From IMG/VR virus record IMGVR_UViG_3300031673_000293, positions 1 through 32,917 of that record: a stretch of 32,917 nt of DNA. The stretch is one strand, 5' to 3'. The position numbers and the translations under genes are program-made. The notes under the pieces were generated by a model. The model made no database searches. It was not told the DNA's origin and was given only the letters and a program-made list of their open reading frames with translations. Of this stretch, positions 14,883-30,923 are shown in pieces. This DNA is from a virus. Within the stretch, counting starts at the first letter, position 1. The number at the start of each line of letters is the position of its first letter.

Positions 14883-15382
14883 TCTGCGGCATTTGTCATG
14901 CCGTCACTAACGGCGGCGTCAATATAGCCCTTGAGCCAGCGAAAGACCTCATCTTCCGTAACGCCAGGCTCCTTCAACTTCGAGACGATGAAGTCGGCCT
15001 CGAGGGTCGTGTGCGCAACCAGCTGGCCCTTCTTCAAAGCCACCAGCGTGATGTCGTCCGACATCAGATCAATGCGCATCATCGCTACAGGCTTCGCCCC
15101 CTTTTTGGCCAGGACCTGTACTGCCGTGAAGTCTAGGGCGTTGAAGGCCCAGACACCGGTGCCCTGGAGTGCCCCATAAACCCCGAACGGGTCAATAGGC
15201 GCCTGTCCGATCAAGGACAGCAAGACCTCGGTGTTCAACAAGGAGAGGCGGCCTAACCGCCGCAGGTTGTCAATCGTGGCGGGCGGCACGAGACCCTTGA
15301 TAGGGAGGACAAGGTCTACTTCGTCGACCTCGTCCGCAATCGCTACGTACGTCTCGAGGTCGACTTGCGCAGGGGTACTCAC
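14879..15382 (-). CDS. Hypothetical phage protein downstream of ParB
   Basis: A 167-residue protein if started at GTG 15382, which overlaps the ParB stop by four bases (GTGA), the usual coupling arrangement in this operon. An upstream ATG at 15418 would lie 36 bases further inside parB and is less likely. The sequence is alpha/beta-like with hydrophobic strands and no motif I recognise. It is the last gene of the nine-gene minus-strand chain and ends in the tandem repeat. Function unknown. Confidence 0.65.
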   Translation of the reverse strand: MSTPAQVDLETYVAIADEVDEVDLVLPIKGLVPPATIDNLRRLGRLSLLNTEVLLSLIGQAPIDPFGVYGALQGTGVWAFNALDFTAVQVLAKKGAKPVAMMRIDLMSDDITLVALKKGQLVAHTTLEADFIVSKLKEPGVTEDEVFRWLKGYIDAAVSDGMTNAAD

Positions 15383-16386
15383 AGCTTCGCTCGTACGCCC
15401 ATGTGGAACTCGGAGCACTTGATCTGGATCCGGGTCACTACCTTGGTCTCGTCGCTTGTTTGAGGGTTCTCCAAACGTGCGATCAAGATGCCGTACTGCT
15501 CGAGCGCGGCACTTACCGGGCGCATCTTGATCTCGACGTCGCCGAGGACCTCCTTGGCCGCTGCGATCTTGTCCTTGTCGTACTCGACAGCGTCCTTCGA
15601 CCCCTTGCGCGACCGTGTCTTCTTGATACCGAGGTCCGCCTTGTGTTTGTCGGCCTCCTCTTTGATGTCCAGAACCGTGACCTTTTCTCCCTTGTCCATC
15701 TTGTCGGTGACGGATTGGAGAATCTCCTTCTGCGTGGAAACAGGGAGCGTGGACATCTCCCGGACGTGCGTCGCAGTGATAGTCCCTGCCGCTACCGCCG
15801 CTTGAATCTCCGGTGCCGCGCGTAGGAGCGCTAGGTGCTGGGACACGTACGGCTCACTCATGCCCATGCTCTTCGCTACTTGAGCCTGAGACATGCCGCC
15901 CAGCTCCATGAGCTTCGCGATACCCCGGGCGACCTCAAGAGGTTCGAGGTCGGCGCGCTGCAGATTCTCAAGGAGGTTGACCAACGCGCTGTCGAGTGCA
16001 TTGCACTTCTTCAGCTTAACCTCGACCTGCTTGAACTTATTGCTGTTCGCACGGATCAGGTTAATAGCCCAGTAGCGCCGCTCCCCTGCGATGAGAAAGT
16101 AGCGCCTCTTCTTGGAGGTCTTCGACGGACCGCCTTCACGTACAACAATCGGCTGAATTAGCCCGTGTTGCTCGATCGAGGAGGACAGCTGCTTCAGGCT
16201 GTCCAGCATCTTCATCTCGTGGTCGGTGAGCACCTTCTTCAGCGCTGCGGGCGCCTTGAGGACAGACTCCTCTCCCTCAGCCGTAACGAACGCCTTTTTA
16301 GCGAACTCACGGAAACTCTCGCGAGAATTGAAGTCATCGCCGATAACGATGTCGGCGTAGGGAACCATTTGTCGGATCTCACTCAT
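15379..16386 (-). CDS. ParB/Noc-like CTPase-fold DNA-binding protein
   Basis: A 335-residue ParB-family protein. It shows the N-terminal ParB fold with Q-H-G-L-I-Q-P-I-V-V (box I) and L-I-A-G-E-R-R-Y-W-A (box II, G-E-R-R, the nucleotide-binding motif). The N-L-L-E-N-L-Q-R-A-D-L segment follows, then a helix-turn-helix (S-Q-A-Q-V-A-K-S-M-G-M-S-E-P-Y-V-S). ATG 16386 is chosen because AGAGGT precedes it and it overlaps the upstream stop (ATGAGTGA); an in-frame upstream extension is less likely. No ParA is visible, so plasmid-like partition is unproven. Lone phage ParB-like proteins may instead act in DNA condensation or regulation. A 16-base palindrome 350 bases upstream is a candidate site. Confidence 0.87.
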   Translation of the reverse strand: MSEIRQMVPYADIVIGDDFNSRESFREFAKKAFVTAEGEESVLKAPAALKKVLTDHEMKMLDSLKQLSSSIEQHGLIQPIVVREGGPSKTSKKRRYFLIAGERRYWAINLIRANSNKFKQVEVKLKKCNALDSALVNLLENLQRADLEPLEVARGIAKLMELGGMSQAQVAKSMGMSEPYVSQHLALLRAAPEIQAAVAAGTITATHVREMSTLPVSTQKEILQSVTDKMDKGEKVTVLDIKEEADKHKADLGIKKTRSRKGSKDAVEYDKDKIAAAKEVLGDVEIKMRPVSAALEQYGILIARLENPQTSDETKVVTRIQIKCSEFHMGVRAKL

Positions 16387-16723
16387 CGGGGACCTCTGCG
16401 TCCTCCACCAGCAGTTCATGGAGAATATCTAACTTTGTCCGGAGCTTCTCCGCGCCGGCGGTATCGGGGGTTTCGTGAAGCTGCCGCTTCAGCTCCTTGA
16501 TGCGGCGTCGTAGTCGAGGAGAATTATCGACGACCACCGACAGATCGTTGTCGGCGTGGCGAACAATGGCGTCTAGGGCGTCCACTACGCCAGCAGTTGC
16601 GGCCTTTCCTGGCGCTACCACTGGTAACAGTTTCGAGAGGACCTCTGCCGCGGTCAAGATACGTTTTCGCGTCACGAATCTTCGGCGACGGTAGAGAACC
16701 TTCTCGATTACATTTCGACCCAA
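16379..16723 (-). CDS. Small basic hypothetical protein with TTG start
   Basis: A 114-residue protein with an Arg-rich N-terminus (about residues 12-20) and a Glu/Leu-rich helical C-terminus that may form a coiled coil (about residues 70-105). The TTG start at 16723 directly follows the upstream stop and has a strong SD, AGGAGG, 5 bases before it. It overlaps the ParB start by 8 bases. I do not recognise the family. Co-translation with ParB suggests a functional link. Confidence 0.65.
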   Translation of the reverse strand: MGRNVIEKVLYRRRRFVTRKRILTAAEVLSKLLPVVAPGKAATAGVVDALDAIVRHADNDLSVVVDNSPRLRRRIKELKRQLHETPDTAGAEKLRTKLDILHELLVEDAEVPDE

Positions 16724-20959: not shown

Positions 20960-22735
20960 ATGGCGAACCCAGCTGCTGACCCCACCATCTCAGACATGTT
21001 GTCCCCGACCAGCTCCCATGGGTCGCCGCTGTTCGACTTCCTGACAGCCTTCGCCCCCCGGAAACTGAAGGACCTGTTCCGTCTCTGTGAGTACCTGTAC
21101 TTCAACTGCTCGCAGATCTACGCGGCGTTGCAAAAGTTCTGCACCTACCCCATCACGGATATCCTCTACGACACAACCAACGAATCGTTGAAGGAGAAGT
21201 GGAAGAAGCTCCACGAGAAGACGCTGAAGACCAAGCGACGCCTCTACCAGGCCGCCGTCGACAAATTCGTCTACGGCAACTTCTTCGCCTCGCTCTACAC
21301 CCCCTTCATTCGTTTCTTGAAGTGCCCCAAGTGCGAGCACCTCACCAATATCACGGCGGTCGACTACAAATACGAACCAAAGAAACTCGTCTTCAAGTAC
21401 GACTGCCCGCACTGCGCCGGCGCGGTGAGCGGCACGATCGTTGACAAACGCCTGACCCGCGCCGACAAGGTCGCCATCATCAGGTGGGATCCGAAGCTGA
21501 TCGACATCGACTACAACCCGATTACCGACCATAGTGAGTACTACTGGACCATCCCGAAGGAGATCAAGGAGCGGGTCACCAACGGCAGCAAGCATCTCAT
21601 CAACACGCTACCGGTCGAGTTCCTTAAAGCCATACAAGGCGACAAGATCTTCAAGTTCGCTGAGGGACAAATCTTCCACATGAAGATGGACGCCCCCGCT
21701 GGCATTGAGGCCCAATGGGGCTTTCCGCCGCTAGCATCGACCATCAAGCTCTTCTTCTACGCCGCTGTACTGCGTAAAGCCAATGAGGCCATCGCACTCG
21801 ACTACGTCGTCCCGTTCCGTATCATCTCCCCCAAGCAGGCCTCCTCCGACGGAGACCCCGTCCAGCGCATCTCTCTCAATCGCTGGGCCGGAGAGATGAA
21901 AACGAACATCAAGCGTTGGCGCCGCGACCCGCTCCACATCATGTGGAGCCCCATCCCCGCTGAGATCACCCACCTCGGTGGCCAGGCCCGCGCCCTCATG
22001 ACCCTCGGCGAGGTCCAGGCAGCGGAGGACAACATCATCGCAGCCCTCGGGCTGCCCAAGGAGTTCATCTACGGCGGCTTCAGCGCTATGGGCTCTGGCA
22101 TCCAGCTCCGTGTCCTCGAGAACCAGCTCCTTCACCAAACGGGTGACCTTAACGACCTGCTCCAGTGGCTCACTGATAAAATGGCCAAGATGCTCGGCTG
22201 GGCCTCCGTCGAGACGGAGCTGGCGCCGTTCAAGTTTATCGACGACGTCCAACAAAAGACGCTGCTCATTCAGCTCAACTCGGCGGACCCCGAGGGGCCG
22301 TGGATCTCAAAGACCACTATTGGCGAAGCCTTCGACATCGACCCGGCAGAAGAACGCCAGAAACGTGTTCAGGAACAGCTGGACGAGGTGCGCTCCCAGC
22401 AAAAACTGCAGGTCGAGATACAGAGCCTGCAGAACACCTTGGCCGCGCAGGTACAGTCACAGCAAGCCGTAGGACAGCAGGGGCTCCAATACGACCAACA
22501 GCGCGTTATCGGCCAGGCCGACATGCTGGTGCAAGAGTTCATGGGCCTCGACCCCGGCATGCGTCGGTCACAGATGCATGCTTTGCAGATGGAGGATTAC
22601 GTCATGTACTCCGTCGTGAAGTCGCGCCTAGAAGACGAGCAGACAGCTATGCACTACGAAGCCGTCACACAAGCACGTGACGCCAATGGAATGAATAACG
22701 GCGGCGGCGACGGCGGAATGCCCCCCGCTCAATAG
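20960..22735 (+). CDS. Portal protein with internal zinc ribbon
   Basis: A 591-residue portal-type protein forming the ring at the capsid vertex for DNA entry and tail joining. Supporting features are its length, a mixed alpha/beta N-terminal half, a long helical region around residues 330-420 with G-L-P-K-E-F-I-Y-G-G (typical portal segment), and a Gln-rich C-terminal coiled coil (455-530). An inserted Cys4 zinc ribbon is clear, with C122, C125, C149 and C152. ATG 20960 has a weak SD (AGGCGG). It starts the large plus-strand virion block, far from terminase (16 kb away), which is unusual because these genes usually lie close together. No prohead protease is visible next to it. Confidence 0.82.
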   Translation: MANPAADPTISDMLSPTSSHGSPLFDFLTAFAPRKLKDLFRLCEYLYFNCSQIYAALQKFCTYPITDILYDTTNESLKEKWKKLHEKTLKTKRRLYQAAVDKFVYGNFFASLYTPFIRFLKCPKCEHLTNITAVDYKYEPKKLVFKYDCPHCAGAVSGTIVDKRLTRADKVAIIRWDPKLIDIDYNPITDHSEYYWTIPKEIKERVTNGSKHLINTLPVEFLKAIQGDKIFKFAEGQIFHMKMDAPAGIEAQWGFPPLASTIKLFFYAAVLRKANEAIALDYVVPFRIISPKQASSDGDPVQRISLNRWAGEMKTNIKRWRRDPLHIMWSPIPAEITHLGGQARALMTLGEVQAAEDNIIAALGLPKEFIYGGFSAMGSGIQLRVLENQLLHQTGDLNDLLQWLTDKMAKMLGWASVETELAPFKFIDDVQQKTLLIQLNSADPEGPWISKTTIGEAFDIDPAEERQKRVQEQLDEVRSQQKLQVEIQSLQNTLAAQVQSQQAVGQQGLQYDQQRVIGQADMLVQEFMGLDPGMRRSQMHALQMEDYVMYSVVKSRLEDEQTAMHYEAVTQARDANGMNNGGGDGGMPPAQ

Positions 22736-23234: not shown

Positions 23235-26200
23235 ATGCCCAAAGACAAAGACCTGTCGCCTGTCCTTATAGACTCGCTCACACGACGACAAAACATCCGA
23301 CGAAAAACGCTCGAGGGGCTATCGGAGTCCTTTCCACTCCAAACCAAGAACTATTCTGTCGCCATCAACAACCCGCGTGTTGAGGAAAAAGAATACTCGT
23401 CGCGACAGCAAAAAGATGCGCTACTCGCCGGTAAGACGCTATCCGAGCGTGTGCGGGGTGACATCGTTGTCAAAGACGCGCAGGGAAAAGTCGTTAACGA
23501 GGCACGGGACTTCACGCTGCTGCAGCTCCCGTACTTCACCCCGCGGCACACTTTTATCGTCGATGGTACTGAGTACAGCGTCTCGAACCAGATCCGAACG
23601 AAGCCTGGGGTCTATACCCGTCGCCGCGGCAACGACGAACTCGAGGCTACCTTCAACCTTTCAAAAGGATCCAACTTCCGCGTTCTCATGGACCCGGCCA
23701 AAGGATACCTCTATACACAGCCCACGAGCAGTGCTTCCCGCACCCCCCTGTACCCCGTCCTACGGGCTCTCGGTATCCCTCATCAGGATATTGCAAAAAA
23801 CTGGGGGGCAACAATCGCTGAGACAAACCGCGCGGCATTCAAGGACCCCGATCGATATGTGGAGAAATTCTACAAGAGCTTCATCCACCCCGCGCAACAG
23901 GTGCACAAGACACATGATGACCGTGTAAAAGCGGTACATGACTACCTCGACAGAACGCAAATGTCCCCCGAGGTTACTAAGCGCACCCTCGGCACCGCCC
24001 ATGACAGGGCCTCACCTCTCGCGATTTTGTCCGCGTCGGCAAAGCTGCTCGACGTCCACCGCCAGGCGGAAGACACTGACGACCGCGATTCCCTCGAGTT
24101 CAAGACCTTCCACTCCGTCGATGACTTCATCAAAGAGCGCCTCCATCTCGACGCCCGCGGTCTCAAAGGAAAGCTCGGCTTGAAACTCGATTCTCACAAG
24201 GGTGATATACGAAAAGCGTTACCTTCTGCTCCTTTCACCCGTGCTGTACACTCATTCCTTGCGAAGTCCTCGCTCGCATCTGTTCCAATGCAAATCAACC
24301 CGATGGAGCTAATGGACTCCGCCGTCCGGGTCACGTCGCTAGGTGAAGGCGCAATCTCTTCCGACCGCGCGATCCCACTCGAGGCTCGTAAGCTACACGC
24401 AACGCACTTCGCCGTGATGGACCCTGCCCGTACTCCAGAGAGCTTCAAAGGCGGTATAGACATCCGCGCGGCAATGACCACGCGTCGCGACGACGCTGGC
24501 AATCTCTACGCGATGCTCCGTGACGTCAAAACCGGACGTCGGGTCCCCCTCAAAGCAGCAGACGTTGCAAACGCGGTTGTCGCCTTTCCTGACGAAAAGC
24601 TCGGGAAAGGGCGTGTCGTGGACGTCATGCGAAACGGAAAGATCGAACGTATTGGCGCCGCGCACGTTACCCACCAAGTCGACCACGCCTCGGACCTATA
24701 CGGGCCAACCACGAACCTGCTCCCACTCATCGGCGGTATGCAGGGAAACCGTGTCCTCATGGGCGCGAAACAGCAGGCCCAGGCCCTTTCCCTCGTAAAT
24801 CGTGAAGCGCCTCTGGTGCAGGTCAGCTCCTGGAATCCACGCCAGTCGATGGAGCAACACATGGTCTCTCTGATCGTCCCGACGGCGCCTGTCGCGGGAA
24901 CCATCGAAAAAATTGACCAGGACTACATCTACCTGCGCCCAACGCAAACAAAGCGAGGCGCCGCCAACTGGGACGTCAAACCCCTCGAGACTGATGCGCA
25001 CAAAGCGCTCGGCAAAGCGCTCGAAGGGCAAACTTGGGGTGGTGTTGACAACCCGAGAGACACGGACCGTATGTTTGGTGTTTTCTCTGATGGGCAACTC
25101 GCGGGAGTCACGCGAGTGAACCCCGGTGACCCCCTGGGCGATTGGAAAGGCCCTGGAGGGCCACCCGAGTCACTTCAAAAACTGGACCCCGACGCTTGGA
25201 TCAACTCAACAGTCGTTGACCCAAAGTACCGTCGCCAAGGAATTGCCCGTGCCCTGCGAGAACGCGTTCAACAGGAATACGACTCGATCCTCTCCAGCGT
25301 AGGGCCCGAATCAAACGCGGCTGCGATGCAGCACCTGAATGAGGAGCAAGGGTTCACGCCCGTGCGAGAACGAAGAGGCCGCACACAGTACCATTGGAAA
25401 CGCCCCGAGAATGAAGTGCCTCCGTTCTTCAAGCGCGGCTCCTACGAAGAAGACGACGAGTTCTACTCAGACTTCCTCAAGCTCGCGGGCGATGACGGAC
25501 TCCTTCGCCTTCACTACGACCAGAACTTCCCCCTCGCCGCCAAGTCATACCTCCACAACAACCTCACGGTGAACGCCGGTGACAAGGTTCGCGCTGGCCA
25601 GCACCTCGCCGACTCGAACTACACGAAGAACGACACGCTCGCGCTAGGGACGAATCTGAGCGTTGCCTACATGCCGTACCGCGGGCTCAATTCAAACGAC
25701 GGTCTCGTCATCTCGGAGGGGGCAGCCAACCGCATGACGTCGGAGCACATGTACAAGTACGTCATGCAGCTCGACGGTGACCTCACGCCCGGCAGGGATA
25801 AACACAAAGCGTATTTCGGTAGCCTGTATTCCGCCGTCCAATACGGACAGCTAGATGACTCTGGCGTCGTAAAAAAGGGCACCACGGTACAGCCCCACGA
25901 CCCCCTGATCGTCGCCGTGCGTGAGACAAAAGCCACTGGAAACGCCGTTCTCCTGGGCCGCCTTTCTAAGTCCCTCGTACGTCCATACGTCGAGGAGACT
26001 GAAGTCTGGGACCATGATCGGCCTGGCCTCGTCATGGACGTTGTCAAAACCGCCCGGCGCATTACGGTTACAGTCAAGACCGAGGAGCGTCTTGGAATTG
26101 GCGACAAGCTCAGCGGTCGCTATGGCAACAAAGGCGTCATCGCTAAGATCATTCCAGATCACCTCATGATACACGGGGAAAACAGGAAGCCCATCGACCT

Positions 26201-28130
26201 CATCTTCACGTCCGCCGGTATTGTATCTCGCATCAATCCTGCGCAAATCGTTGAAGCAGCCCTCGGCAAAGTCGCGGACAAGACCGGCAAACCAATGGTC
26301 CTTGACCAGTTCCACCCGAGTGACAACGTGGAATTCGCCAAAAGGCAGCTCAAAAAGCACGGCCTCCACGACAAAGAGGTGGTATTCGACCCCGAGACGG
26401 GGAAAAAGATCCCCGGTGTGTTCGTCGGAAAGAGCTACATCCTCAAGCTGTTCAAGACGACGGATTCCAACTGGGCCGCGCACGGGGCAGAACGCTACGA
26501 CTTTAATCAGCAACCTGCACGAGGCGGTGCGGACGGCGCCAAGGCCCTCGGCAAGATGGAATTCGATGGCTTAGTCGCGCATAACGCGCGCAACGTTCTG
26601 CGGGAAGCGGCATCTATCAAGGGACAGAGGAACGACGAATTCTGGCGATCAGTTCAACTCGGCCTCCCCACGCCTGCACCTCAGACCTCTTTCACGTACA
26701 ACAAATTCCTCACCGCGCTTCAGGGCGCTGGCGTCAAGGTCGACAAGCAGGGAAATCGCCTTGCCCTCGGCCCCCTGACCGACCATGACATTTCAAAAAT
26801 GTCCGCGGGAAAACTGCGTTCCCCGCAGAAATTGCTCCGAGCGAAGGACCTCAAGCCTGAAAACGGTGGTTTGTTTGACCCCGTGGTCACGGGGGGAACG
26901 GACGGTACGAAGTGGTCCCACGTCGACCTGCACGAACCCATTGTAAATCCGGTCTTCGTCGAACCTGTTCGACGTTTGCTCGGTATGACGAAGAAGGAGT
27001 TCCTGGAGCAGCACGGGCAACACGGGGGGGACTACTTCAAGCGAGAACTGAAGAAGATCGACGTCGACAGCAAGCTCAACGCGCTACACACGAGTACAGA
27101 AACTCTCCGGGGGGCCTCTCTCGACGATGCCGTTAAGCAGATCAAATACCTTAACGCCCTCAAGGCACAGAACCTGAAACCACAGGACGCTTATGTGCTG
27201 TCCAAAATCCCTGTAACGCCGCCAATCATCCGTCCTGTGCTCCCTCTCAAAGACGGGCGCCTCCAGGTGGGGGACGCGAACCTGCTCTACCGTGACGCGT
27301 TCCTCGCCAACAAGCAGCTTGGGGAAGTGAAGGGCGTGCTCCCGGCGGATGAGTTGAAGCATCCGCGCAACCACCTCTTCGAAGCAATCGGTGCGGTCTT
27401 CGGCACCCACGCCCCCGTAAGCCCTACGACCAGTAAACGCGGCGCGAAGGGCTACCTCAATCTCATCGCAGGAACGCGCCCGGGAAGCGGCTTCTTTCAG
27501 TCCAAGCTAATGAAGCGACAACAGGATGTCTCCGGGCGTGCGACTATCGCCCCCGATCCAACCCTCAATATGGACGAAGTTGGTGTTCCTGAGGACATGC
27601 TCTGGGGGATGTACGGGAAATTCGTCATCGGGCGCCTAGTGAAAAAAGGCTACTCTGCCACCGACGCGCAGAAGATGGTCGAGGAAAAACGACCCCTGGC
27701 ACGGAACGAACTGCTTACGGAGGCACAGGAACGCCCCGTCATGATCAATCGAGCACCGTCGCTACACCGCTTCAACATCGTCGGTGCCTTCCCGAAAATC
27801 GTGGAAGGGAAAACCATCCGGCTAAACCCCTTCGCTGAAAAGGGCATGAGCGCTGATTACGATGGTGATGCAATCCAGGTCCACGCTCCAGTTACCCCTG
27901 GGGGTATCGCCGACGTCAAAAATATGACCTTGTCGAACCTCATCTTCAGCGACAAGCAACCCGGACAGCTCAACATCGCACCCCAACATGAAGCCGTCTT
28001 AGGGCTGTACAAAGCCACCGCTCCCGGCAAACGAGGGAAAGCAAAGCACTTTGCTTCGAAGCAAGAGGCTCTCGCTGCCTACCACCGCGGAGAGATTTCG
28101 TTGCAAGACAATGTTGAGATTGGTCGGTAG
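23235..28130 (+). CDS. rpoBC: RNA polymerase beta + beta' N-terminal fusion with embedded GNAT domain
   Basis: A 1631-residue multisubunit-type RNA polymerase chain. Beta part: protrusion/lobe strand F-I-V-D-G-T-E-Y-S-V (106-115), N-L-L-P-L-I with R-V-L-M-G-A-K-Q-Q-A (494-515), L-A-L-G-T-N-L-S-V-A-Y-M-P-Y (802-815), G-D-K-L-S-G-R-Y-G-N-K-G (956-967, the conserved double lysines), and K-M-E-F-D-G-L (1107-1113). A GNAT acetyltransferase interrupts it at about 596-725. Beta' part: K-P-E-N-G-G-L-F-D (1207-1215), clamp helices (about 1263-1317), P-I-I-R-P-V-L-P-L-K-D-G (1330-1341), D-V-S-G-R (1431-1435), and catalytic S-A-D-Y-D-G-D (1539-1545) with D1541/D1543/D1545. It stops where beta' would continue into the gene at 29133. 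The first beta' zinc ribbon is missing. RBS AGAGGG precedes the ATG. No alpha or omega subunit is visible. Confidence 0.93.
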   Translation: MPKDKDLSPVLIDSLTRRQNIRRKTLEGLSESFPLQTKNYSVAINNPRVEEKEYSSRQQKDALLAGKTLSERVRGDIVVKDAQGKVVNEARDFTLLQLPYFTPRHTFIVDGTEYSVSNQIRTKPGVYTRRRGNDELEATFNLSKGSNFRVLMDPAKGYLYTQPTSSASRTPLYPVLRALGIPHQDIAKNWGATIAETNRAAFKDPDRYVEKFYKSFIHPAQQVHKTHDDRVKAVHDYLDRTQMSPEVTKRTLGTAHDRASPLAILSASAKLLDVHRQAEDTDDRDSLEFKTFHSVDDFIKERLHLDARGLKGKLGLKLDSHKGDIRKALPSAPFTRAVHSFLAKSSLASVPMQINPMELMDSAVRVTSLGEGAISSDRAIPLEARKLHATHFAVMDPARTPESFKGGIDIRAAMTTRRDDAGNLYAMLRDVKTGRRVPLKAADVANAVVAFPDEKLGKGRVVDVMRNGKIERIGAAHVTHQVDHASDLYGPTTNLLPLIGGMQGNRVLMGAKQQAQALSLVNREAPLVQVSSWNPRQSMEQHMVSLIVPTAPVAGTIEKIDQDYIYLRPTQTKRGAANWDVKPLETDAHKALGKALEGQTWGGVDNPRDTDRMFGVFSDGQLAGVTRVNPGDPLGDWKGPGGPPESLQKLDPDAWINSTVVDPKYRRQGIARALRERVQQEYDSILSSVGPESNAAAMQHLNEEQGFTPVRERRGRTQYHWKRPENEVPPFFKRGSYEEDDEFYSDFLKLAGDDGLLRLHYDQNFPLAAKSYLHNNLTVNAGDKVRAGQHLADSNYTKNDTLALGTNLSVAYMPYRGLNSNDGLVISEGAANRMTSEHMYKYVMQLDGDLTPGRDKHKAYFGSLYSAVQYGQLDDSGVVKKGTTVQPHDPLIVAVRETKATGNAVLLGRLSKSLVRPYVEETEVWDHDRPGLVMDVVKTARRITVTVKTEERLGIGDKLSGRYGNKGVIAKIIPDHLMIHGENRKPIDLIFTSAGIVSRINPAQIVEAALGKVADKTGKPMVLDQFHPSDNVEFAKRQLKKHGLHDKEVVFDPETGKKIPGVFVGKSYILKLFKTTDSNWAAHGAERYDFNQQPARGGADGAKALGKMEFDGLVAHNARNVLREAASIKGQRNDEFWRSVQLGLPTPAPQTSFTYNKFLTALQGAGVKVDKQGNRLALGPLTDHDISKMSAGKLRSPQKLLRAKDLKPENGGLFDPVVTGGTDGTKWSHVDLHEPIVNPVFVEPVRRLLGMTKKEFLEQHGQHGGDYFKRELKKIDVDSKLNALHTSTETLRGASLDDAVKQIKYLNALKAQNLKPQDAYVLSKIPVTPPIIRPVLPLKDGRLQVGDANLLYRDAFLANKQLGEVKGVLPADELKHPRNHLFEAIGAVFGTHAPVSPTTSKRGAKGYLNLIAGTRPGSGFFQSKLMKRQQDVSGRATIAPDPTLNMDEVGVPEDMLWGMYGKFVIGRLVKKGYSATDAQKMVEEKRPLARNELLTEAQERPVMINRAPSLHRFNIVGAFPKIVEGKTIRLNPFAEKGMSADYDGDAIQVHAPVTPGGIADVKNMTLSNLIFSDKQPGQLNIAPQHEAVLGLYKATAPGKRGKAKHFASKQEALAAYHRGEISLQDNVEIGR
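25020..25409 (+). other. GNAT acetyltransferase domain inserted in RNA polymerase beta
   Basis: Residues about 596-725 of the fusion protein. A strand G-V-F-S-D-G-Q-L-A-G-V (615-625) leads to W-I-N-S-T-V-V-D-P-K-Y-R-R-Q-G-I-A-R-A-L (655-674). This has the acetyl-CoA pyrophosphate loop R666-x2-G669-x-A671 of GNAT motif A. Motif B-like N-A-A-A-M-Q-H-L-N-E-E-Q-G-F (694-707) follows. The flanks are ordinary beta sequence: the strand I-Y-L-R-P-T before it, and N-F-P-L-A-A-K-S-Y after it. The reading frame is continuous, so this is an internal insertion, not a separate gene. Confidence 0.87.
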
Positions 28131-28162: not shown

Positions 28163-28756
28163 ATGCCGATGAAAAGCAAAGCGCAGCGCCGCTGGATGTG
28201 GGCCAACGAACCTGATATGGCCGCCCGCTGGGAAAAAGAGACCCCAAACGGCAAGCGCCTTCCTGAGAAGGTCAAGCATGCCTACATCAAAGGTGCCGCG
28301 GATGCCCTCGACATCTATGGGCTCAAAACTGCGGCGAAGGAATGTCGCCGCAAGATCCCACAGAAGCCAAGCAACGGAAAGTTCCACGGCGCTAAGGCAG
28401 CCTTTCGTACGGAGGCGAGCAAGAATGCCGAACTCGAGCCCCCTATGCCTCCACTTCCCGCTGACGAGGTCCCCGGCGGTATCCTTCCTGAGGTGCCTCC
28501 GATGGAGGAACCTCCCGCTGAGGGCCTTCCCATCGAGGGGGAAGAGCCACAGGAGGGGGCGGGAGACTTGCCCATCGACAAGCTCACCAACATCCTCCAA
28601 GCACTTCCGGACCCTGTACCGGCCCCGGACGACGCCCGCCAGGACCCGCTCAACCGCGCCACGCATTGGGGCGCCCCCTCCGACCTATCCGGGGGGGACG
28701 CGGGCGGTCGTGTGGATAACCTTGGACAGAACACTGGAATTGGGACGGCCTTCTAA
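28163..28756 (+). CDS. Small phage protein with KSKAQRRxxWAN motif and Pro-rich region
   Basis: A 197-residue protein. It starts with K-S-K-A-Q-R-R-W-M-W-A-N and then A-A-R-W-E-K-E-T-P, a short motif I know from many phage structural or assembly proteins of unknown function. Residues 38-56 repeat the A-Y-x-x-G-x-x-x-A-L motif shared with neighbouring small proteins. The middle (93-165) is Pro/Glu-rich and probably disordered. No SD precedes the ATG; the TATAAT 9 bases upstream may make it leaderless. Its stop overlaps the next start (TAATG). It lies between the two halves of beta', so it could be a virion protein associated with the polymerase. Confidence 0.75.
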   Translation: MPMKSKAQRRWMWANEPDMAARWEKETPNGKRLPEKVKHAYIKGAADALDIYGLKTAAKECRRKIPQKPSNGKFHGAKAAFRTEASKNAELEPPMPPLPADEVPGGILPEVPPMEEPPAEGLPIEGEEPQEGAGDLPIDKLTNILQALPDPVPAPDDARQDPLNRATHWGAPSDLSGGDAGGRVDNLGQNTGIGTAF

Positions 28757-29124
28757 TGCTCAAAGACGCATACGACCAAGGTTACGCCGCAGCCCTCGAG
28801 AAGTTCGCCGTCGAAGGCCCCGTACGCTCCTCCGCGCTCGATCAGCGCGCCCCCGGTTCACACGGGACTTCCAACCCCGAGAAGCGGTTCGGTCGAGGAC
28901 TCGTCAGCGGCCAGAAACGACACCTGAGTAACCTGGGGAAAAGCGTCGGGCGCATCCTAGACCCTTCCACGGGACCAATGTCACGGAAGAACCTTAAAGG
29001 GCTCGCCTGGAGTTCCGCCAAAGGCCTCGCACCATCAATGGCCATCGGCGCAGCGGGTCTCTGGGGGGCCAAGAAACTCCTCGGCGGGTCCAAGAAGCAG
29101 CAACCCACCCAGCAGTTCGGCTAA
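28756..29124 (+). CDS. Small basic protein with the AYxxG N-terminal motif
   Basis: A 122-residue protein beginning M-L-K-D-A-Y-D-Q-G-Y-A-A-A-L-E-K-F-A, the clearest copy of the shared N-terminal motif. The middle is basic with Arg/Lys, and the C-terminal part has a Gly/Ala-rich hydrophobic stretch (about residues 91-108) that could be a membrane or core-packing helix. Start overlaps the previous stop by one base (TAATG). Function unknown; likely virion-associated. Confidence 0.7.
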   Translation: MLKDAYDQGYAAALEKFAVEGPVRSSALDQRAPGSHGTSNPEKRFGRGLVSGQKRHLSNLGKSVGRILDPSTGPMSRKNLKGLAWSSAKGLAPSMAIGAAGLWGAKKLLGGSKKQQPTQQFG

Positions 29125-29132
29125 ACTGACAC

Positions 29133-30923
29133 GTGCCCACTTTCGGTCAATACCTCGTTGACGACGCACTCCCGGAGAAGTACCGGGGGCGCGGCACGTT
29201 GACGAGTAAAAATATGCACAACGTCCTCACGGACATTGCCAAGAACGACCCTGACCAGTACGCGGCTGCAGTCACAGGCTTGAAGCGCGTCGGAGACGAA
29301 ATTTCTACACTAGAAGGGATCTCCGTCGGCCTCGACGACATCACCAGTGAGCCGAAGCGAAATGCGCTCATGAAGATGCACGCGACAAAGTACCACCGCG
29401 CCACTGGGGATGCGAAAGAGAGAGCCCTCCTCACAGCGCAAAACGCGGTCCTAGACTACACAAAGACGCACCCGGGCGAGATGGGGCGCATGGTAACGTC
29501 AGGTGGTCGCGGGGCTCACGGGCAGCTCATGAAAATCATCGGAGGCCCCGTTCTAGCGCGCGATAGTAATGATGTGATAATCCCCTGGTTCATCAGCAAA
29601 AACTACGCGGAGGGGCTCAAAGCCTCCGATGCATGGGTCGCCGGCGACGAAGCACGCATGAACGTTGTCAAGTCCAACCTCGCACCAGCAGACGCGGGAG
29701 ACTTCGCCAAAATCCTCGTCAACAATATGGGCGACAAGCTCATCACGATGCCCGACTGTGGCACCAAGAACGGCATCGCGCTGAAGGCTAGCGACCCCTC
29801 TATCATTGACAGATATCTCGCTTCAACACACGGGCAGTACCCTGCAGGGACCCTCATCACCCCTGCGATTGCGCAAAAGCTCTCAAAAAACACGACGGTT
29901 ATCGTCCGCTCTCCTATGACCTGTCAGGCCCCGAGCGGCCTTTGCCAGAAGTGCCAGGGGCTATCTACCAACGGCAAACACCACACAGTGGGCACAAATG
30001 TCGGTATGCGTGCCGCTCAGGCACTCGCAGAACCTTTGACACAATTCGCGCTCGACGCCCGGCACGGGGGGCGGGTCAACACAGAGGAAAAGAAACAACT
30101 GCGAGGTGTCCAAGGCGTCCGCCAAATGCTCGAGATACCCCGCTCTTTCCTGCACCACGCAGTCCTCGCTAGCAAGGATGGTGCGGTCGAGCGCATTGAA
30201 AAAGCGCCCCAAGGCGGTCACTACATTTACGTTAGTGGTGTGAAGCTTTACTCGAGTCCCGACCTGCGCATAACTGCACGCGCCGGAGACAAAGTAGAAG
30301 CGGGTGACGCGCTAACCGATGGCATCCCGAAGCCAGACGAGGTCGTACGTCTCAAAGGACTGGGGCAAGGACGCGAGCACCTGGTAGACATGCTCCACGG
30401 CATCTATCAACGTGAAACAGGCGGGGTCGACCGCCGCCACCTGGAGACATTGGCACGGTCGGTCATGAACCATGTCCTAATCACCGACACGGGGGACAAC
30501 ACTGACCACGGTTTCGTCAGGGGCGACGTCATCGACTACAACCGTTTCCATGCTGCGCTCGAGTCGCATCGCAAAAAAGTCCCGACCGATGCCGCAGTTG
30601 GCGAAACGCTCGCAGAGAACGTCTTACACTTTACGGCGGGAACTCGTGTGACTCCATCGATGCGTGATACGCTGAGAGCACGCAACATTCGCGCCGTGAA
30701 CATCTCCACGACCGCCCCGCGTGTTGAGCCGGTCGTTCGTGCAGCGTCACGTACCCCCCTCCTCAATCCTGACTGGATGGCACGCCTTGCGCATCGTTAC
30801 CTCAAAGAATCCCTCATCACGGGAGCACATCGAGGCGACGTGAGTGACCTACGTGGAATGAATCCTATCCCCGCCTACGCGGCAGGGGTCACCTTTGGTC
30901 AAGGTGAAGGAGGACGGTACTAA
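29133..30923 (+). CDS. rpoC: RNA polymerase beta' C-terminal part (bridge helix, trigger loop)
   Basis: A 596-residue protein continuing beta' where the fusion ends. It begins with P-T-F-G-Q-Y-L-V-D-D-A-L-P (as T-T-V-G-R-A-L-L in beta'). The bridge-helix region has V-T-S-G-G-R-G-A-H-G-Q-L (121-132). The second beta' zinc site is complete with C209 (D-C-G-T), C264, C271 and C274, at the bacterial spacing. The trigger loop is T-Q-F-A-L-D-A-R-H-G-G (303-313); the catalytic His (H311) is kept but the Arg two turns before it is Asp (D308). A C-terminal segment A-G-D-K-V-E-A-G-D-A-L-T-D (395-407) matches bacterial beta'. GTG 29133 is the first possible start after an in-frame stop and has no clear SD, so it is probably coupled to the previous gene. 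The jaw is small. Confidence 0.92.
   Translation: MPTFGQYLVDDALPEKYRGRGTLTSKNMHNVLTDIAKNDPDQYAAAVTGLKRVGDEISTLEGISVGLDDITSEPKRNALMKMHATKYHRATGDAKERALLTAQNAVLDYTKTHPGEMGRMVTSGGRGAHGQLMKIIGGPVLARDSNDVIIPWFISKNYAEGLKASDAWVAGDEARMNVVKSNLAPADAGDFAKILVNNMGDKLITMPDCGTKNGIALKASDPSIIDRYLASTHGQYPAGTLITPAIAQKLSKNTTVIVRSPMTCQAPSGLCQKCQGLSTNGKHHTVGTNVGMRAAQALAEPLTQFALDARHGGRVNTEEKKQLRGVQGVRQMLEIPRSFLHHAVLASKDGAVERIEKAPQGGHYIYVSGVKLYSSPDLRITARAGDKVEAGDALTDGIPKPDEVVRLKGLGQGREHLVDMLHGIYQRETGGVDRRHLETLARSVMNHVLITDTGDNTDHGFVRGDVIDYNRFHAALESHRKKVPTDAAVGETLAENVLHFTAGTRVTPSMRDTLRARNIRAVNISTTAPRVEPVVRAASRTPLLNPDWMARLAHRYLKESLITGAHRGDVSDLRGMNPIPAYAAGVTFGQGEGGRY

Follow-up and report, generated by a model that had tools for sequence, protein, structure and literature searches.

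A predicted GNAT domain occupies a recurrent insertion hotspot in the beta subunit of a phage RNA polymerase

Why would the chain of a phage RNA polymerase be interrupted by what appears to be an acetyltransferase, and what could such a domain do there? The question is raised by a viral contig of 32,917 nucleotides (IMG/VR record IMGVR_UViG_3300031673_000293; the whole of this stretch is referred to here as the window), in which a sequence-only reading had placed a GNAT domain within an RNA polymerase beta subunit. The gene (Table 1) is a single open frame that continues uninterrupted across the inserted segment. Pfam recognized beta domains (Rpb2_3 and Rpb2_6) as well as beta' domains (Rpb1_1 and Rpb1_2, the former 0.1 bit under its cut-off), and NCBIfam rpoB and rpoC models matched this frame, with beta' continuing in a second, downstream ORF. 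A profile of ten relatives matched bacterial beta and beta' chains in the PDB with E values down to 5e-108, which argues that the polymerase is of the bacterial type. The gene is not beta alone, since the N-terminal half of beta', including the SADYDGD motif, is fused to it. The catalytic motifs are intact in both beta and beta', and the beta catalytic-lysine motif has its counterpart in GDKMAGRHGNKG at residues 1063-1074 of Salmonella beta. Judged by its sequence, the ORF is thus a bacterial-type multisubunit RNA polymerase, providing the beta and beta' core. The interval between the two polymerase ORFs (28163-29124) holds two small ORFs, the second of which has a AYDQGYAAALEKFA-like start; ORFs further downstream (30923 and 31485) have similar starts. 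Elsewhere in the window, a ParB-like protein was identified by PHROGs at 15379-16419.

Table 1. Positions of the polymerase genes, the insert and associated features in the window
Feature	Position	Strand	Basis
Portal protein	20960..22735	+	29% identity, E 7e-96, to annotated Salmonella phage Arash portal
RNA polymerase beta + N-terminal half of beta' (fusion, 1631 aa)	23235..28130	+	Pfam, NCBIfam, PDB profile
Predicted GNAT insertion, residues about 578-730 (~150 residues)	24966..25424	+	PF00583, AlphaFold, Foldseek/VIA, empty site in L003
GNAT motif A, putative acetyl-CoA pyrophosphate loop KYRRQGIARAL, residues 664-674	25224..25256	+	Sequence, alignment
Motif B segment LNEEQGF	25335..25355	+	Sequence, alignment
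Beta catalytic-lysine motif GDKLSGRYGNKG	26100..26135	+	Sequence
Beta' metal-binding motif SADYDGD	27849..27869	+	Sequence, residues 1539-1545
Beta' C-terminal half	29133..30923	+	Pfam Rpb1_5; 28% identity to Arash beta' C-half

The segment that interrupts beta matched Pfam Acetyltransf_1 (PF00583) at 31.0 bits when taken alone and at 26.1 bits in the whole protein (cut-off 20.7), and a search of the genome placed the GNAT match at 25056-25292 (E 5e-9). Its borders were set by comparison with an insert-free relative (L003). The place originally proposed, 25020-25409, was correct, but its limits were too narrow, the insert being about 18 codons longer on the 5′ side and 5 codons longer on the 3′ side. 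GNAT motif A was located as claimed, and within it the R/Q-x-x-G-x-G/A acetyl-CoA loop is present as RRQGIA. A motif B-like segment had also been suggested; it is found as LNEEQGF, but without the usual general-acid tyrosine, the position being Asn in the window GNAT and Tyr in 7/7 other aligned GNATs (those of the related contigs L002, L015 and L021 and four bacterial GNATs). This Tyr is the usual general acid of GNATs, common though not universal, and its replacement by Asn places the activity of the window GNAT in doubt.

AlphaFold was applied to the isolated domain with an alignment of eight rows and gave a model with core pLDDT of about 70-88 and the strand-helix order of GNATs. Structure searches with this model (Foldseek and VIA-align) returned acetyltransferases, including RimI and NAA60, and all 50 VIA matches listed were acetyltransferase chains or complexes holding one; the best Z score, 12.0, was obtained for 1wwz and RimI 2cnm, with an rmsd of 2.3-2.5 over about 110 residues. 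In the context of the polymerase, the insert was modeled with low confidence (pLDDT 62, pTM 0.47). The comparison with GNAT folds that the sequence-only reading had proposed thus came out in its favor, and its central claim, a GNAT domain inside a phage RNA polymerase, is upheld by the Pfam score, the open frame and the predicted fold. On these grounds, the insert is a GNAT superfamily domain with a predicted RimI/NAA60-like fold, a fold which by itself does not reveal the substrate. Candidate roles put forward in the sequence-only reading are acetylation of the host polymerase, of host ribosomal or nucleoid proteins or of the phage polymerase itself, or service as a binding domain that has lost activity; that reading did not include the beta-beta' fusion, the presence of a homologue in virions, the hotspot common to GNAT and InPase or the precedent of phage Rac. 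GC content at third positions is 0.59 in the insert versus 0.66 and 0.70 in the flanking parts, which fits, without proving, a later arrival of the insert. A peptide-pattern scan of IMG/VR found the exact insert in one contig only, and no close relatives of the window GNAT were found in that scan, in phage records or in plasmids; when genome contigs were scanned for the motif, four bacterial GNATs were recovered, all of them distant, and an IMG/VR profile scan returned the L021 contig only. An intein origin of the GNAT insert was ruled out because it has no intein or homing-endonuclease match and has a predicted GNAT fold.

The closest relative found, L003, is colinear with the window and 87% identical over the kept columns, but a short linker takes the place of the GNAT insert; DNA identity between the two is about 80% on the 5′ side of the site and 78% on the 3′ side. 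Since L003 lacks the insert, the GNAT is dispensable for the core enzyme. Four IMG/VR scans together with named phage records provided 102 distinct site-spanning sequences besides the window, and 93 rows were kept after removal of redundancy. Of these 93, four have a GNAT in the loop, about 15 have a phage-type pyrophosphatase (InPase, PF18823), one has another phage domain and 73 have no domain. The GNATs besides that of the window are in L002, L015 and L021, so that the same insertion, which the earlier reading had suggested seeking in related polymerases, does recur at the same site. For the InPase rows, five of the 15 were tested by Pfam and scored 69-130 bits, seven were assigned by close resemblance, by eye, to tested rows, those of L135 and L150 were just above the Pfam cut-off, and that of L157 was below it (18.9 versus 26.8 bits) and is counted with caution. 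A third domain type is represented by the insert of L034, which belongs to a phage family of unknown function (phrog_30942) and had no meaningful Pfam or PDB match. L041 (9693-10502) and L150 have extra segments of about 100 residues beside the InPase, an indication that multiple domains can fit into this loop; the extra segment of L041 had no Pfam match and falls in phrog_17560, of unknown function, and a ParB-like identity for it found no support. Alignment with Salmonella RpoB places the insert at about residues 737-750, in the loop following the strand VDASRIVIKV, and its tolerance of whole domains suggests that this loop lies on the polymerase surface. Most relatives have Lys-Ala-rich stretches (KHAE, KTAA, KAAAE) here, either beside the insert or by themselves, which could be flexible or cleaved linkers. 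One loop of the phage polymerase beta subunit is a recurrent insertion hotspot for enzyme domains.

The distribution of these domains was then placed on trees, whose change counts do not separate gain from loss. At least six changes at the site were counted on a careful 51-row tree (GNAT 3, InPase 2) and at least nine on a quick 93-row tree (GNAT 3, InPase 5). L002 and the window are each surrounded by rows that have no insert, and identity between their GNATs is only about 20%; separate GNAT gains are therefore the simplest reading. The GNATs of L002 and L015 share 41% identity. The closest pairs of InPase inserts have dN/dS values of 0.07-0.11, indicating purifying selection as in the backbone, and the L037-L041 InPase insert is less constrained (0.40 versus 0.13).

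A polymerase of the same architecture has been detected in phage particles. Salmonella phage Arash (OQ632216, PMC10585845) also encodes a beta-beta'N fusion, Gp206, which is 35% identical to the window ORF, and a separate beta'C, Gp216, and its polymerase gene shortly follows that of the portal, the order seen in the window. In purified Arash particles, Gp206 had the highest spectral count, Gp216 the fifth highest, and a sigma factor was present, although the authors concede that some carry-over of abundant proteins is possible (PMC10585845). The Arash loop has no insert, and presence in particles was measured in that phage, whereas the window phage is known from sequence alone. Analogy with this homologue suggests that the window polymerase belongs to the virion class.

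Several known systems resemble parts of this arrangement. In the account of polyvalent proteins (Iyer 2017, PMC5512222), GNAT and InPase appear among the named domains, the GNATs are RimI-like, and the proteins are virion-packaged, with injection alongside the genome proposed. The likeness lies in the presence of these two domain types on a large, here putatively virion-associated, polypeptide; the carriers in the passages covered include portal and MuF proteins, with no mention of a polymerase, and polyvalent proteins combine several conflict-type domains on one polypeptide, of which the window polymerase has one. The Rac acetyltransferase of phiKMV-like phages is likewise a phage GNAT tied to transcription takeover, but it is a separate protein and triggers cleavage of the host RNAP alpha subunit (PMC7552054). 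In AR9 and PBS1, a beta fragment of the virion RNAP also carries a fused enzyme domain (HD) (PMC7598289, PMC7824862), but at the end of a split phiKZ-type subunit, whereas the GNAT of the window lies in an internal loop of a bacterial-type beta. Inserts of cellular beta, mostly BEAN domains at five described sites, are similarly polyphyletic and recurrent in position, but are mostly of one domain type, with no enzyme described (PMC11515920). The virion RNAP of P23-45 shares its polypeptide with another function, in that case by fusion to the tape measure protein, and the abstract of that report does not mention an inserted effector domain (PMC10770324). We found no earlier report of an acetyltransferase or pyrophosphatase within an RNA polymerase subunit in the literature covered, which was mostly open-access, so novelty is unproven.

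These comparisons provide the basis for a model, to which we assign a probability of roughly 0.55, in which a virion polymerase has an exposed loop that repeatedly gains effector enzymes of the polyvalent-protein type, here a GNAT, which are delivered with the genome. The polymerase would be made as beta-beta'N and beta'C and, by analogy with Arash, packed into the particle. Its beta surface loop (about 737-750 of enterobacterial beta) would repeatedly have gained whole enzyme domains, in this phage the GNAT, and the GNAT would most likely enter the cell with the polymerase, alongside the genome, where it could bind acetyl-CoA and modify a host protein or amino-bearing molecule as infection starts. 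Host-directed cargo is favored because GNAT and InPase are polyvalent domains (PMC5512222) and because Rac offers a precedent (PMC7552054). Also in favor of the model are the GNAT profile match and fold, the empty site of L003, the repeated occupation of this loop as against the intein-like inserts elsewhere, and the purifying selection on InPase inserts in the closest pairs. The cargo reading is limited by the virion data coming from the insert-free Arash, by the missing Tyr of the window GNAT, by the presence of the insert in a single contig and by the low confidence of the in-context model. More tentatively, and at somewhat short of even odds, we suggest that the beta subunit of virion RNAPs is a standard carrier with one swap-in loop, through which different phages deliver different enzymes (acetyltransferase, pyrophosphatase and others) at time zero; a single molecule would then both initiate phage transcription and attack the host. 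The polymerase may have a second role of this kind, that of carrying enzymes into the bacterial cell as soon as infection begins. If so, the repeated use of one site by three or more domain types would mean that effectors can travel on a core enzyme of transcription, and the hotspot inserts would amount to a list of candidate takeover enzymes. Carriage is open to test in relatives available in culture, Arash among them, and on the domains in isolation.

The main rival to delivered cargo is a role in cis for transcription, in which the GNAT acetylates its own polymerase or senses acetyl-CoA as a signal for it. Such inserts are tethered to the polymerase, and InPase, the commonest, would hydrolyze the pyrophosphate by-product of RNA synthesis, an idea also put forward for polyvalent InPases (PMC5512222). 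However, it is not obvious how a GNAT would relate to RNA synthesis, most relatives (73/93) manage without an insert, and the third domain type, that of L034, falls in a phage family that is unrelated and has no known function. We consider a cis role rather unlikely, though a serious contender. A further reading is that the loop merely tolerates folded domains, the window GNAT being a dead or near-neutral passenger that serves at most as a binding surface. Its absence from the nearest relative and the change of the general-acid Tyr to Asn agree with this, as does the nature of the lineage-specific inserts of cellular beta, which are BEAN domains with no enzymes mentioned (PMC11515920). Yet RRQGIA, the acetyl-CoA loop, is preserved, the GNAT state has changed three or more times and that of InPase several times, which exceeds what is expected of a neutral loop, and InPase inserts are, in the closest pairs, as conserved as the backbone; we judge the passenger role unlikely.

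An assembly chimera or mis-join, which the finding of the exact insert in one contig only might suggest, is very improbable because other contigs (L002, L015 and L021) have GNATs at the same site; moreover, the frame is open throughout and both flanks run colinear with L003.

Outside this loop, the large inserts of the gene look, from their sequences, like inteins. Among 57 sequences surveyed for inserts of >100 residues inside the beta-beta'N frame, the other large inserts sit at conserved motifs, corresponding to window residues 402 (L009, L010 and L072), 959 (L018, L053 and L070), 1417 (L070) and 1551 (L040 and L070). Those at conserved catalytic motifs are about 350-510 residues long, and L070 combines three of them with an InPase. 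Pfam matches were intein- or LAGLIDADG (homing-endonuclease)-like in L018, L040 and L053, and the L009 insert had no Pfam match. The beta frame is split in two in L064 and in L033 (Vibrio phage D181, 3001-8515), where a homing endonuclease gene lies between the beta halves. In the deep relatives L057-L059, the frame extends well beyond where it normally stops, which may reflect fusion of a larger part of beta', and their extra segments are near the frame end.
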